Assembly (NCBI GenBank): GCA_018883325.1
Contig: VEQH01000012.1
Coordinates: 1-64,000 of the forward strand
DNA length: 64,000 nt
DNA from: Flavobacteriales bacterium
GTDB lineage: Bacteria; Bacteroidota; Bacteroidia; Flavobacteriales_D; Crocinitomicaceae
Direction of reading: 5' to 3'
Numbering within the stretch: position 1 is the stretch's first letter; every line of letters begins with the position of its first letter. Under the pieces are notes generated by a model. That model saw only the letters and a program-made list of their open reading frames with translations. It did not search any database and was not told the DNA's origin. Shown piece by piece: positions 46,543 to 62,381 of the stretch. The position numbers were made by a program, and so were the translations under genes.

Positions 46543-47928
46543 ATGAGACAACTATTTACATTTATCTTTTCTGCTTTAGGAAGTTTTCTTTTTGCACAAA
46601 GTAATTTTACAGTATTCAATAACGGCGGACAGCAATTTTATGTAATTCTTAATGGAATCAAACAGAATTCTGTACCACAAACGAATGTTTCAATTTCTGG
46701 TGTTAAAAATGGTGGTTACTCTGTGAAATTGATTTTTGCAGATGGTAAAACAGCTGATATTGATAAAAACTTCATGATTGACTCACCGACGGACATAACA
46801 ACGAAAGTGAGCTTCAAAAAAGGAAAAGGGAAACTTCAATTGGTTAGCATGGTTCCAACATCAGGTACAATGAGTTCTGGTGCTGTTATTTATCGCGAGA
46901 ATAATAACGTGATTTATTCTGATGCACCTGTGGTTAATGTTCAAACGCCGCCAACAACTACAACAGTTACAACGAATCAAATTGTTCCATCTAACGTTAA
47001 TGGAAATGTGCAGATAAACGGAACGCAGACTCAAACGCAGACTCAAACCCAAACAAACGTGAACACTTCCAATCAAACTATGAATGGAAACGTAAACATG
47101 AACGTTGGAATTAATGGAAACGTTGGTGTAAATGGTACAACTTCAACAAACGGGCAAAACGGAAACGTTAATATGAACACCAATGTCACAACAAACGGCA
47201 TGAATGTTTCTGTAAACGATCCTATGGTTGGTGAAAATATCAATGTGAATGTCGGAATCACTACAAACGGTACAACGATGACAGTTACTGATCCAATGAT
47301 GAATGGAAATGTAAACATGAATGTGAACATGAACGGGATGCCGATTTCAAATTCTACTTCAACAGTAACAACAACTTCAACTCAAACAATAAATGGTCAA
47401 ACGACTTATCAATCTGGAAGTACAACTACTCAAAGTAATGCAGGAAATGTAACTGTTACGAGCACGGGAAATCCAACAATGAATGGAAATGTAAACATGA
47501 ATCCAAATCCAAATGGAAACGTTACTATTTCAACTTCTGGAAATGCAAACCAAAATAGCAATACAAGTTCCAACAGCAATGTAAATACAACTCAAAACAC
47601 GAATATTAATTCAACAAATAGCAATTTTATCAATTGTACAAGAATGTTGCTTAATACGGATGAATTTATTGCTGACCTTAAAACGCAAACATTTGAAGAT
47701 GATCGCGTAGAAATTATTTACAAAGATTTGACAAAAACATGTGTTACAGCTGTTCAAGTTTATAAGATTTTGGAAACGATAACCTTTGAAGCGACTAAAT
47801 ATGAAGTTGCACAATTTTTATATTTCAGAACGAGTGACAGACAAGTTTTAGACAAAGGAATGTTGCCATTATTTACTTTCGATAGTACAAAAATGGACTG
47901 GAGAGAATTTGTTCGTAAGAATCAATAA
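46543..47928 (+). CDS. Exported DUF4476 protein with a long Asn-rich linker
   Basis: The ATG at 46543 (MRQLFTFIFSALGSFLFAQ) opens a signal peptide; a TTG two codons earlier is unlikely. Residues about 20-110 are a beta domain (FTVFNNGGQQFYVILNGI) typical before DUF4476. Residues about 135-365 are low complexity, almost all Asn, Thr, Gly, Val, Met and Ser with repeated GNVNMN and TQTQTQTQT units. The DUF4476 domain follows at about 370-461 (DRQVLDKGMLPLFTFDSTKMDW at its end). Function is unknown; the linker probably exposes the end domain. A strong terminator follows. Confidence 0.85.
   Translation: MRQLFTFIFSALGSFLFAQSNFTVFNNGGQQFYVILNGIKQNSVPQTNVSISGVKNGGYSVKLIFADGKTADIDKNFMIDSPTDITTKVSFKKGKGKLQLVSMVPTSGTMSSGAVIYRENNNVIYSDAPVVNVQTPPTTTTVTTNQIVPSNVNGNVQINGTQTQTQTQTQTNVNTSNQTMNGNVNMNVGINGNVGVNGTTSTNGQNGNVNMNTNVTTNGMNVSVNDPMVGENINVNVGITTNGTTMTVTDPMMNGNVNMNVNMNGMPISNSTSTVTTTSTQTINGQTTYQSGSTTTQSNAGNVTVTSTGNPTMNGNVNMNPNPNGNVTISTSGNANQNSNTSSNSNVNTTQNTNINSTNSNFINCTRMLLNTDEFIADLKTQTFEDDRVEIIYKDLTKTCVTAVQVYKILETITFEATKYEVAQFLYFRTSDRQVLDKGMLPLFTFDSTKMDWREFVRKNQ
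47026..47578 (+). repeat. Low-complexity AATGGAAA(T/C)GT-type repeats inside the DUF4476 gene
   Basis: Units such as ATGAATGGAAATGTAAACATG recur several times, encoding NGNVNM blocks, beside ACTCAAACGCAGACTCAAAC units. Such tracts expand and contract easily by slippage, so length may vary between strains. Confidence 0.7.
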
Positions 47929-48013
47929 TTGCAAGATTTTACTTTTAAAAGTCGTTTTATTCGAAAATCAGAACCTAGAATTATATTCAAAGTTATCATT
48001 GATGACAAAATTG

Positions 48014-48045
48014 AAATCCATTTAATTCGTTAGATGGATTTTTTT
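48014..48045 (+). terminator. Intrinsic terminator of the DUF4476 gene
   Basis: AAATCCATTTAA and TTAGATGGATTT form a 12-bp stem with one G-T pair and a TTCG tetraloop, followed by a run of T. It lies 85 bp past the stop. Confidence 0.85.
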
Positions 48046-48078
48046 ATGATAAGATTTTTATGTTAAGGAAGCAGTATT
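48020..48078 (+). repeat. 59-bp direct repeat, left copy
   Basis: It begins ATTTAATTCGTTAGAT and ends GAAGCAGTATT. The right copy at 48201-48259 has the same length and differs at only a few positions. The palindromic element at 48079-48199 sits between them. It begins inside the terminator stem. Confidence 0.85.
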
Positions 48079-48199
48079 AGACCGTTTCAAAAGTCGATAA
48101 TTTAAGCTTTCTAAAAATTTAAATCAGGAGTTTACCCTTGTAAATGAGGATTCTAAATTTTTTTTGAGTAACGACAAGTAGCGAGTTGTGCAACGGTCT
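48079..48199. mobile_element. MITE-like palindromic element, copy 1
   Basis: This 121-bp element has terminal inverted repeats AGACCGTTTCAAAA and TTGTGCAACGGTCT. It is imperfectly palindromic almost throughout: inner arms TTTCTAAAAATTTAAA and TCTAAATTTTTTTTGAG can pair, and GTTTAC/GTAAAT flanks a central CCTT. It has no coding capacity. A near-identical copy is at 62216-62334. It may be a non-autonomous transposable element or a structured RNA element. Confidence 0.75.
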
Positions 48200-48200
48200 T

Positions 48201-48259
48201 ATTTAATTCGTTAGATAGATTTTTTATGATAAGATTTTTGATGTTATGCAAGCAGTATT
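48201..48259 (+). repeat. 59-bp direct repeat, right copy
   Basis: It begins ATTTAATTCGTTAGAT and ends CAAGCAGTATT, matching the left copy at 48020-48078. It ends 14 bp before the stop of the convergent gene. Confidence 0.85.
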
Positions 48260-48273
48260 GCTTTCTTGTACGA

Positions 48274-50661
48274 TTAGCGTAAAACATTGACATGTCCTGT
48301 CATAAGTTGTTCTATTTCCCGATTAGGTTTATAGATTAATTTCCAAATATAGGTTCCGTCTTGAACTTTTTTACCCTTGTATTTCCCGTCCCATCTGAAA
48401 TTCATATCCTCAGTGTAATAAACAGATTGTCCCCAGCGGTTAAAAACTTCAAGTTTTATCCAAGCAACTCCAACAAAACTACCTAAGAAAAAGTTATTGT
48501 ATCTATCACCATCAGGAATGAATGTATTTGGTATATAGATGTAAAGTTCTTCTTTTATTATAATTTGTTTTGTGATTGTGTCTTTGCATCCCTTTGCATC
48601 CTCAGCAATCAAAGTAATGTAGTAAACACCAGCTGTATCAAAAGTGTGGTTTGCATGCATTTCTGCGGATGAACCCCCATCACTAAAAAGCCATTGGTAT
48701 TCAACTGCATTAACGGAAGTATTTTGAAACGAAATCGGTAAATCTTCAGTTAAAGTTTGACTTAAAATATTGAAATCAGCGCGTGGTCGAACTACAGTTA
48801 CAGGTGCAAAACCTGAAATAGTAAATGTATTACAGCCATCTGAAACTTTCACTTCATAAAAACCAGTAGTATAAGGTCGAACCCAAGTTGCTGTTGTGGT
48901 TGCTCCATTATGTGACCATAAATAAGTGTAGTTTCCAACTCCACCAGAGGCTGTTGCGTAAACCATTGCGCTATCTCCAGGGCAAATTTCTATTGGTGGA
49001 TTAACAGTAACAACCAGCGGAGGAGCAGTAATTGTGTAAAGTATGGTGTCCGAGATAGTAGCTCCGCAATTATCACTTACGGTAAGGAAATAGGAACTTG
49101 TTGTCTCAGGAGTTACTGTTAATGAACTCGTTGAACTCAAAAGTGCACCTGCTGCATTTCGCCAGCTATAGGTGTAAATTCCTGTTCCACCAGAAACAGA
49201 TGCGGTAAATACATGTTGAATAAAAGGACAAATTTCAGTTACATTAGGAATTGGTGCTAAAACAAGCGGAGTGTAAACGGGAACTTGAACAAAAACTGTA
49301 TCAAACGCTTCAGTACCAATACAAACATCGTTTACAACAATTGAGTAAGTTCCAGATGCGTTTGGAGCAATGCTAATACTTGATGAGGTTTCTCCTGTGC
49401 TCCATAAATAGGAATAGGGGCTAATTCCCCCTGTAACCGTGGCGTTTAATTGAATGTTTTCACCAGGACAAGAAACGGAAGGGTCTGGAATGTTAACTTG
49501 AAGATCTACAATGTCTTGAATAAATAAATTCACTTCAAGTGGAGTAATATTTCCACAAGGGTCGGATATTTGAAAGATAAGTTTTATAGTTTCTAATCCT
49601 TCAGGAATATTATCTAAAAGTGCATCAATTGTATAAGAGATAGTTGCTTGACCAGGATTGAAAGTTACAGAACTTGGGAAATTGGTGTAATCAACACCAT
49701 TTGTTGCTGATCCTGAGATTAATACTGGAATAGTCAATGAATTCTGTAAATTTGCTTCTCTAGTTAAGTCAACAGTTGCTGTAACACATCCTTCAGCCAA
49801 CCAATTGGGGTTTGAAAAATATTGTGGAGTAACAGTATGTGAAACACTTATTGGCGTTTCAGAAGATAAACTATTAGCTTCAAGGAAAATACCTGAATCC
49901 CATTGCCCATCACCAACATCTGCAACTGCAATGACTAAGTGATAAGTCTGCCCACATTGAACACGAGAAACTGCTTCAAGTACGTCTGTGAAACCGTCGT
50001 ATTGAATGTAAAAAGGATTATTGTTGTATGGCGCACTGTTTCCATCCCCATTAAAATTGTAAAACTGAGAATTTGTGATTGTATTCACGTTATTAATGGA
50101 GACGATACTACCATTTGTTGGGAGTCGCGCAATATTTTGCATTCCCACAATTCCTGGACCAGAAATAAAGAATCCAAAAACGTCGTTATAACTTGAATTG
50201 TTTGGTGGCGCAAATTCTGGATATTCGTCTGAACCAAACACATATTTGAAACGAACAGTATCAGAAAAAGGAATAAAATCAAATTCTAAAATTGCAGCAT
50301 TAAATGTTCCTGTTCCTCCAATTAGATTAGATAAAATCGAAGAACCTCCTGTGCCATTATCCATTCCACAACCAGCTTGATTATTTGGACCTTGTGGACC
50401 ACTACCGTTATTGATTACAGTTCCTGTGGTTAAAACTATTCCTTGATCTATTCCTAGATTGGTGTTTGTGCCTGAAAAAGAGGCGATTGCAGAAGGGCTT
50501 CCATTATACATTATATTGGAAACGATCACTCCTTGCCCTAATAAAACATTTTCAACCAAGGCTTGAGGGCTTTGTCCTGTGCTTGTTGTAAGCTGAGACA
50601 GAGCGGGAGAGGCAAAAGCGAGCCCTAAAAGGATTAATATTTTGGTTATACAGTTTTTCAC
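48274..50661 (-). CDS. Large secreted protein: choice-of-anchor L domain, Ig/PKD repeats, T9SS type B sorting domain
   Basis: The 795-residue protein has a signal peptide (to about SPALS), a choice-of-anchor L domain at about 30-265 (VLLGQGVIVSNIMYNG, FGSDEYPEFAPP, FGFFISGPG), a Calx-beta-like stretch, two or three Ig/PKD-type repeats with YxYLWSTGETSSSI and YTYLWSHNG, and a C-terminal gliding-associated CHU_C domain (YIYIPNTFIPDGDRYNNFF, FNRWGQSVYY, DGTYIWKLIYK). The CHU_C tail is the type B T9SS signal, so the protein should be exported to the cell surface, likely as an adhesin. Confidence 0.92.
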   Translation of the reverse strand: MKNCITKILILLGLAFASPALSQLTTSTGQSPQALVENVLLGQGVIVSNIMYNGSPSAIASFSGTNTNLGIDQGIVLTTGTVINNGSGPQGPNNQAGCGMDNGTGGSSILSNLIGGTGTFNAAILEFDFIPFSDTVRFKYVFGSDEYPEFAPPNNSSYNDVFGFFISGPGIVGMQNIARLPTNGSIVSINNVNTITNSQFYNFNGDGNSAPYNNNPFYIQYDGFTDVLEAVSRVQCGQTYHLVIAVADVGDGQWDSGIFLEANSLSSETPISVSHTVTPQYFSNPNWLAEGCVTATVDLTREANLQNSLTIPVLISGSATNGVDYTNFPSSVTFNPGQATISYTIDALLDNIPEGLETIKLIFQISDPCGNITPLEVNLFIQDIVDLQVNIPDPSVSCPGENIQLNATVTGGISPYSYLWSTGETSSSISIAPNASGTYSIVVNDVCIGTEAFDTVFVQVPVYTPLVLAPIPNVTEICPFIQHVFTASVSGGTGIYTYSWRNAAGALLSSTSSLTVTPETTSSYFLTVSDNCGATISDTILYTITAPPLVVTVNPPIEICPGDSAMVYATASGGVGNYTYLWSHNGATTTATWVRPYTTGFYEVKVSDGCNTFTISGFAPVTVVRPRADFNILSQTLTEDLPISFQNTSVNAVEYQWLFSDGGSSAEMHANHTFDTAGVYYITLIAEDAKGCKDTITKQIIIKEELYIYIPNTFIPDGDRYNNFFLGSFVGVAWIKLEVFNRWGQSVYYTEDMNFRWDGKYKGKKVQDGTYIWKLIYKPNREIEQLMTGHVNVLR

Positions 50662-61998: not shown

Positions 61999-62215
61999 TT
62001 CTTCGTTTCAAAATATAATCTATTGTAGGATTGGAAAGCTCAATTGAGTATTTAAGCTCTTTTTTAATCAACTCATTATTGTTTTTACAACCTTATTTAC
62101 CTTAAAATTAACAATTTCGATAACGATATTTTCTCATCAATTTTGCTTTTCAAGCAAAAAAACCGAATTGTTTCCTATAAATTCTAACTATTTAAAATGC
62201 ACTTTTAATAGTGTA

Positions 62216-62334
62216 AGACCGTTTCAAAAGTCGATAATTTAGGCTTTCTAAAAATTTAAACCCGGAGTTTACCCTTGTAAATGAGGATTTTAAATTTTTA
62301 GAGTAACGACAAGTAGCGAGTTTTGCAACGGTCT
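62216..62334. mobile_element. MITE-like palindromic element, copy 2
   Basis: This 119-bp copy matches 48079-48199 with only a few changes and the same orientation. Its ends AGACCGTTTCAAAA and TTTTGCAACGGTCT are inverted repeats with one mismatch, and the inner arms CTAAAAATTTAAA and TTTAAATTTTTAG pair well. There is no flanking 59-bp repeat here and no evident target duplication. Confidence 0.78.
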
Positions 62335-62381
62335 TCGCGTTATATTCATTCTATTGTTGATTAATACTTACTTAAGGTAGG

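Follow-up and report, generated by a model that had tools for sequence, protein, structure and literature searches.

The interior of a MITE that occurs twice in the window, the 64,000-nucleotide stretch of Flavobacteriales DNA analysed here, seems to be under selection as a single-stranded structure, either RNA or single-stranded DNA. The element itself is a MITE, a known kind of element, and the explanation as a whole, a MITE moved by an IS and carrying a selected folded interior, is considered reasonably probable. The features of the two copies and their immediate flanks are as follows.

48020..48078, no strand assigned: 59-bp direct repeat to the left of copy 1, in one register with its partner around the element
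48079..48200, + strand: MITE copy 1 (122 bp), 93% identical to copy 2, matched by model R1 with E 2.6e-12, a value to be read knowing that the training set of the model contained copy 1 itself
48129..48147, + strand: core hairpin of copy 1, located by core pattern match
48201..48259, no strand assigned: 59-bp direct repeat to the right of copy 1, in the same register
62215..62335, + strand: MITE copy 2 (121 bp), equal to the majority sequence of the family, which was taken from 34 copies excluding copy 2 itself and including a left-truncated copy
62215..62231, + strand: left terminal inverted repeat of copy 2, its first ~15 bases matching the end of an IS5-family element
62241..62244, + strand: AGGC motif of copy 2, read from the sequence, at the 5' foot of the inner stem (AAGC in copy 1)
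62266..62284, + strand: core hairpin AGTTTACCCTTGTAAATGA of copy 2, located by core pattern match
62305..62308, + strand: AACG motif of copy 2, read from the sequence, at the 3' foot of the inner stem
62319..62335, - strand: inverted repeat at the right terminus of copy 2, agreeing with the left IS end over 17 bases

A first-pass annotation had described two copies of about 120 bp in the same orientation, with inverted-repeat ends and the capacity to form a hairpin. The coordinates were right within a base, the orientation is shared, and the terminal inverted repeats, AAGACCGTTTCAAAA and TTTTGCAACGGTCTT, are present, copy 1 having one additional mismatch (TTGTGC). Folded as RNA, the + strand of copy 2 reaches -38.3 kcal/mol (z -5.96), which none of 200 shuffles equalled; the fold of the copy 1 + strand is weaker (-28.3, z -2.71, equalled by 1 of 200 shuffles). 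The RNA folds of the - strands gave z -5.07 for copy 2 and z -1.27 for copy 1. Both copies counted in that annotation are real, but the total for the genome (4.06 Mb, 139 contigs) is 34 distinct full-length copies of ~121 bp, 91-100% identical to copy 2, accompanied by one left-truncated copy and several fragments. A coincidence confined to two copies is ruled out by this number, and the refuting case of no more than two copies that the annotation had set does not arise.

The 121-bp copies have inverted ends and carry no coding gene, and 2 of 35 copies overlap a called ORF. Perfect 5-bp target duplications flank 18 of the 34 copies (shuffled mean 1.57, maximum 6 in 1,000 shuffles), and 29 copies have such duplications when up to one mismatch is allowed (6.46 expected). 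Among the duplication lengths checked in the 34 copies, from 2 to 9 bp, none but 5 bp stands out. The family mutates evenly in this genome, at 2.2-3.1% in ends, loops, stems and core of the 34 copies, and insertion sites therefore show no special constraint. One copy was found split, with its left 29 bases on contig C31 and the rest on contig C8 (loci L033 and L039); the split junctions share an inverted 13-mer, TTTTTCAGCAGAC, which suggests either that an inversion ran through the element or that the assembly is at fault here.

An IS5-family element of 1,307 bp in the same genome (G000:C37:248-1554) has the same ends as the MITE and lies between the flanks atacc/atacc; it was one inward-facing pair among the matches listed by the end-motif search. 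It carries an open frame of 379 amino acids that matches NF033581, the IS5-family transposase, with E 1.6e-80 and DDE_Tnp_1 with E 6.6e-29. This is the transposase with matching terminal repeats that the earlier annotation had asked for, found together with a 5-bp duplication, and with the 34 copies and the duplications at 18 of them it bears out the proposal of a non-autonomous mobile element. As judged from these sequence matches, the transposase of this IS, or that of a close relative, very probably moves the MITE in trans, and would do so by cutting at the ends. MITE and IS share 15-18 bp at their ends, and interior matches are short, AT-rich and of E 0.018 or worse; a derivation of the MITE from the IS by internal deletion was ruled out, the common sequence being confined to the ends. 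A genome of another genus with eight core matches (G736) contains an element that is likewise 1,307 bp long, shares these ends, carries a 72% identical transposase and has the flanks aataa/aataa; in a genome with ten core matches (G670), an interrupted transposase of 94% identity lies next to one such end. The transposase was absent at E<=1e-40 from 59 other relatives. Three genomes of the same genus contain full-length MITEs (at 77-84%), yet no transposase at E<=1e-40.

A clean 5-bp duplication is absent from the flanks of both window copies. Copy 1 is exactly flanked by the two 59-bp direct repeats instead of a 5-bp duplication, the repeat pieces being 88-100% alike; these possibly arose as a target duplication of this length or through duplication at the hairpin. 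Beside this copy, at 48277-50661 on the - strand, a large secreted protein is encoded that contains PKD and SprB repeats together with a type IX secretion signal of the CHU_C kind. The use as a terminator that had been suggested for the element is unsupported for copy 1, no terminator-like site having been found across 47850-48400 in a scan that covered the copy 1 region only. At the dUTPase locus, homology with genome G034 (89.5% over 554 bp) starts at 62337, right after copy 2, and homology with genome G003 (85.9% over 362) starts at 62339. The left flank of copy 2 differs from both genomes at this single locus compared for an empty site, and the 102-aa protein encoded there had no tblastn match among 29 relative loci. 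Copy 2 marks a synteny break because homology with G034 and G003 begins at its right edge and its left neighbour differs; a position at such a break is consistent with the missing duplication and with recombination between copies.

The interior of the element is a core with the layout AGGC, stem, tandem G.A loop, stem, AGTTTACnnTTGTAAATGA, stems and AACG, where the order from AGGC to AACG is outer stem, tandem G.A loop, second stem, G.A-type loop and core hairpin. Of 399 genomes searched in the order, 37 contain the pattern AGTTNACnnTTGTNAATGA, representing 14 of 70 genera and with up to 31 matches per genome; the reversed pattern, used as a control, matched 8 of 399 genomes once each, so some of the single-match genomes are due to chance, and some single matches fall by eye in coding sequence (L142, L148, L149, L155). 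At least 115 stretches with GGAGTTTACnnTTGTAAATGA occur among 84,980 species. By labels that come from MAG records or record titles and that may include misbinned sequences, the 80 stretches listed comprise 61 from Bacteroidota, 6 labelled Chlorobiota, 1 labelled Cloacimonadota and 12 from gammaproteobacteria, the last including Pseudomonas, Stutzerimonas and Halomonas. In a redundant set of 168 core matches, some of them chance, AGGC stands 20-32 nt ahead of the core in 147, AAC[GA] 14-26 nt behind it in 145, and both do so in 137, the commonest distances being 24-27 and 19-20. Stem lengths are ~10 and 6 bp in the gammaproteobacterial set and ~3-4 and 14 bp in one Bacteroidota class. Elements differ widely in stem sequence yet agree in AGGC, AACG, loops and spacing. 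Next to AGGC or AACG, six Bacteroidota loci (L166, L209, L213, L216, L223, L228) have an extra GC-rich insert, in many cases a small palindrome, as though insertions into the loops were tolerated.

The search of the phylum with model R1 was insensitive, with 11 candidates scored per genome, and 2 of 392 genomes were positive, including the genome of origin. The window element had no match in plasmids or phages. Its Pseudomonas form matches nine plasmid records and no phage; no annotated feature lies beneath these plasmid matches among the annotations listed, nor in the one region inspected. Neither the exact core GGAGTTTACnnTTGTAAATGA nor the exact ends pattern matched any viral contig. At the gathering score no Rfam 15 family was placed on the element in the window and 16 loci, and in 8 of these loci the scan went down to E 5 and gave three weak matches, none on the element; a known Rfam RNA was rejected, as no element tested was matched. 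Literature queries by sequence string and by topic found no description of element or core, and a cross-phylum core with exchanged ends matched no Rfam or literature counterpart.

The same core is also found between other ends. Many elements in Bacteroidales MAGs, of ~144 bp, start with AGTGTCYGTCCATAAAG or similar, and 18 of 30 have 4-bp target duplications (shuffled mean 7.1, maximum 13), a denominator that retains four rows with impossible lengths and one element with a doubtful left end (L174). In one MAG, 72 forward and 61 reverse end matches give an estimate of 60-70 elements. Because the ends and the duplication length differ (4 versus 5 bp), one and the same core appears to travel with two or more transposition systems. 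For the other end classes, no inward-facing pair at IS-like spacing was present in the loci examined. The ends of a third class of core elements are similar to those of an IS5-family element in genome G050 (28% identity; ends GGGGAGTTCTATAATTT; flanks tcat/tcat); a transposase of the G050 type was absent from nine other genomes searched, and as a second cognate transposase it is only a lead, since the searched hosts of the class lack it.

Pairing within the core is conserved where sequence is not. Among 62 non-redundant elements, chosen for AGGC and AAC at set distances so that both motifs are invariant by construction, outer-stem position 3 is Watson-Crick in 55, with several pair types (shuffled mean 20.1, maximum 31), 33 have T.T at position 1, and positions 1-4 pooled have 36 G.T against 2 A.C mismatches. 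The core hairpin covaries, with TTTAC/GTAAA, TTGAC/GTCAA and TTAAC/GTTAA. In alignment A3 (12 of 13 members of a Bacteroidota-type class, L137 being left out), 93.5% of cells pair versus 84.1% after shuffling, and in A4 (all 8 members of a gammaproteobacterial class) 97.7% versus 84.6%, with 11 pairs changed on both sides in each; the two alignments together hold 20 of 66 class members listed, and the shuffle controls for pairing ignore common descent. When the alignments were slid, pairing dropped to 33-46%. Further pair types in A4 were not above shuffles (43 of 500 were as high).

In a set of 81 non-redundant elements picked by arm complementarity (score 14 or more), the + strand gives a better fold than the - strand in 80 with RNA parameters and in 74 with DNA parameters. 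When all arm mismatches of this set are counted with helix limits ignored, G.T and A.C are without bias (66 versus 68). Young copies have 23 G.T and 10 A.C, and part of the G.T/A.C bias may therefore be mutational. It is the covarying stems together with the preference for one strand that make a selected single-stranded structure, beyond a DNA palindrome, seem to be involved. The structured nucleic acid that the first-pass annotation offered as an alternative is thus upheld as to a conserved fold with compensatory changes, but the element is mobile as well.

An ordinary MITE with a passive interior, its core kept by recent common descent and its pairing by quasi-palindrome correction (template switching), would account for part of these data. 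MITEs are described as commonly palindromic (PMC10969869), and such an origin agrees both with the even mutation over regions in the copies of this genome and with the lack of overall G.T/A.C bias just noted. However, the persistence of AGGC, AACG, loops and spacing among widely varying stems argues against it, as do the strand preference and the outer-stem excess of G.T, since palindrome correction favours neither strand. A passive interior is therefore held to be unlikely, and selection on the fold is the preferred reading.

A second possibility is a cis-acting regulatory RNA that is carried into untranslated regions. The tandem G.A loops and G.T pairs are RNA-like, insertions in tandem gene contexts of this genome were co-directional in 12 cases and antisense in 4, and in four loci an element lies <=400 bp from the same aminotransferase-like gene. 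Outside this genome the orientation test was negative, with 23 co-directional versus 35 antisense insertions (58 of 124 insertions examined), and in the 34 copies conservation of the core does not exceed that of the ends, which makes this function quite improbable. Orientation relative to genes has no consistent bias. Clustering of 2,152 ORFs from core-bearing loci revealed no common neighbour gene; the largest cluster comprised 19 ORFs from 15 loci, of which 7 lay no more than 400 bp from a core. At three Halomonas-type loci (L204, L237, L274) a core element lies upstream of what is apparently the same aminotransferase gene; this may be an ancient insertion that has been retained, or one that serves a function there. 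The even mutation and the lack of a consistent orientation bias point to the element's own spread rather than to host regulation.

A polar hairpin with conserved unpaired bases suits Y1 (HUH) enzymes, and target duplications with long inverted ends are features of DDE transposons. The element resembles REP/REPIN sequences with their RAYT in being short, intergenic, hairpin-forming and multi-copy, and differs from them in its terminal inverted repeats and target duplications and in that no core match was found near Y1_Tnp genes. Y1_Tnp matches were present in 28 of 60 genomes searched, one of them in this genome. However, 17 Y1_Tnp loci gave a single core match at chance level (E 0.69 with the weak 6-pair model R1), and genome G003 has core elements and zero Y1_Tnp matches. 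A RAYT link is thus unsupported by any credible core match, and a REP/RAYT-type element whose hairpin is the substrate of a Y1 transposase is considered highly improbable. Integron attC sites are single-strand hairpins read by structure, with variable stems; the element would resemble them in a single-strand hairpin with variable stems, but no R/L-box arrangement was recognised in it by eye.

The closest likeness is to IS5-family IS and their MITEs, with the same ends, a 5-bp duplication and an IS5-family transposase in one genome. Unlike in these, the interior of the present element is not IS-derived, and its core also occurs on elements with other ends and 4-bp duplications. A minisatellite-bearing MITE of Porphyromonas gingivalis is named BrickBuilt; like it and like MITECca01 of Cardinium, the element is non-autonomous and belongs to Bacteroidota. 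The P. gingivalis MITE is reported to hold a minisatellite (PMC4596501), and MITECca01 to be ~240 bp long and derived from an IS982-family element (PMC9769881). In Pseudomonas fluorescens, R178 (101 bp, present in three strains and enclosing an 11-bp inverted repeat) and R30 (120 bp) have been described (PMC2718517); these could be the pseudomonad form of the core, the comparison being one of descriptions rather than sequences.

As to mechanism, the + strand would be used in single-stranded form, either as single-stranded DNA during replication or transposition or as a transcript, and a putative trans-acting factor would read the folded strand. Only elements that keep the fold would amplify, and single insertions would drift. 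The chances of this sequence of events are put at about even; no protein that recognises the core was found. The most likely target of selection is the lineage of copies that transpose, in which loss of the fold would stop the spread, because insertion sites are unconstrained and orientation is not consistently biased. More tentatively, the core may be a structured nucleic-acid module, not described before, that is common to genomes of Bacteroidota, of gammaproteobacteria and of organisms labelled Chlorobiota and that is carried by transposons with differing ends and duplication lengths, its + strand, folded as single-stranded DNA or RNA, being read by a putative factor needed for propagation.

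MITEs are usually viewed as a pair of ends around filler that can be dispensed with. Here it is this filler that is conserved, as the fold, its compensatory changes and the fixed loops persist while the ends and the duplication length change. If this is true, some factor has the folded DNA or RNA of transposons as its target, and the core would give a searchable signature for a family of elements that is without annotation in the plasmid records examined.
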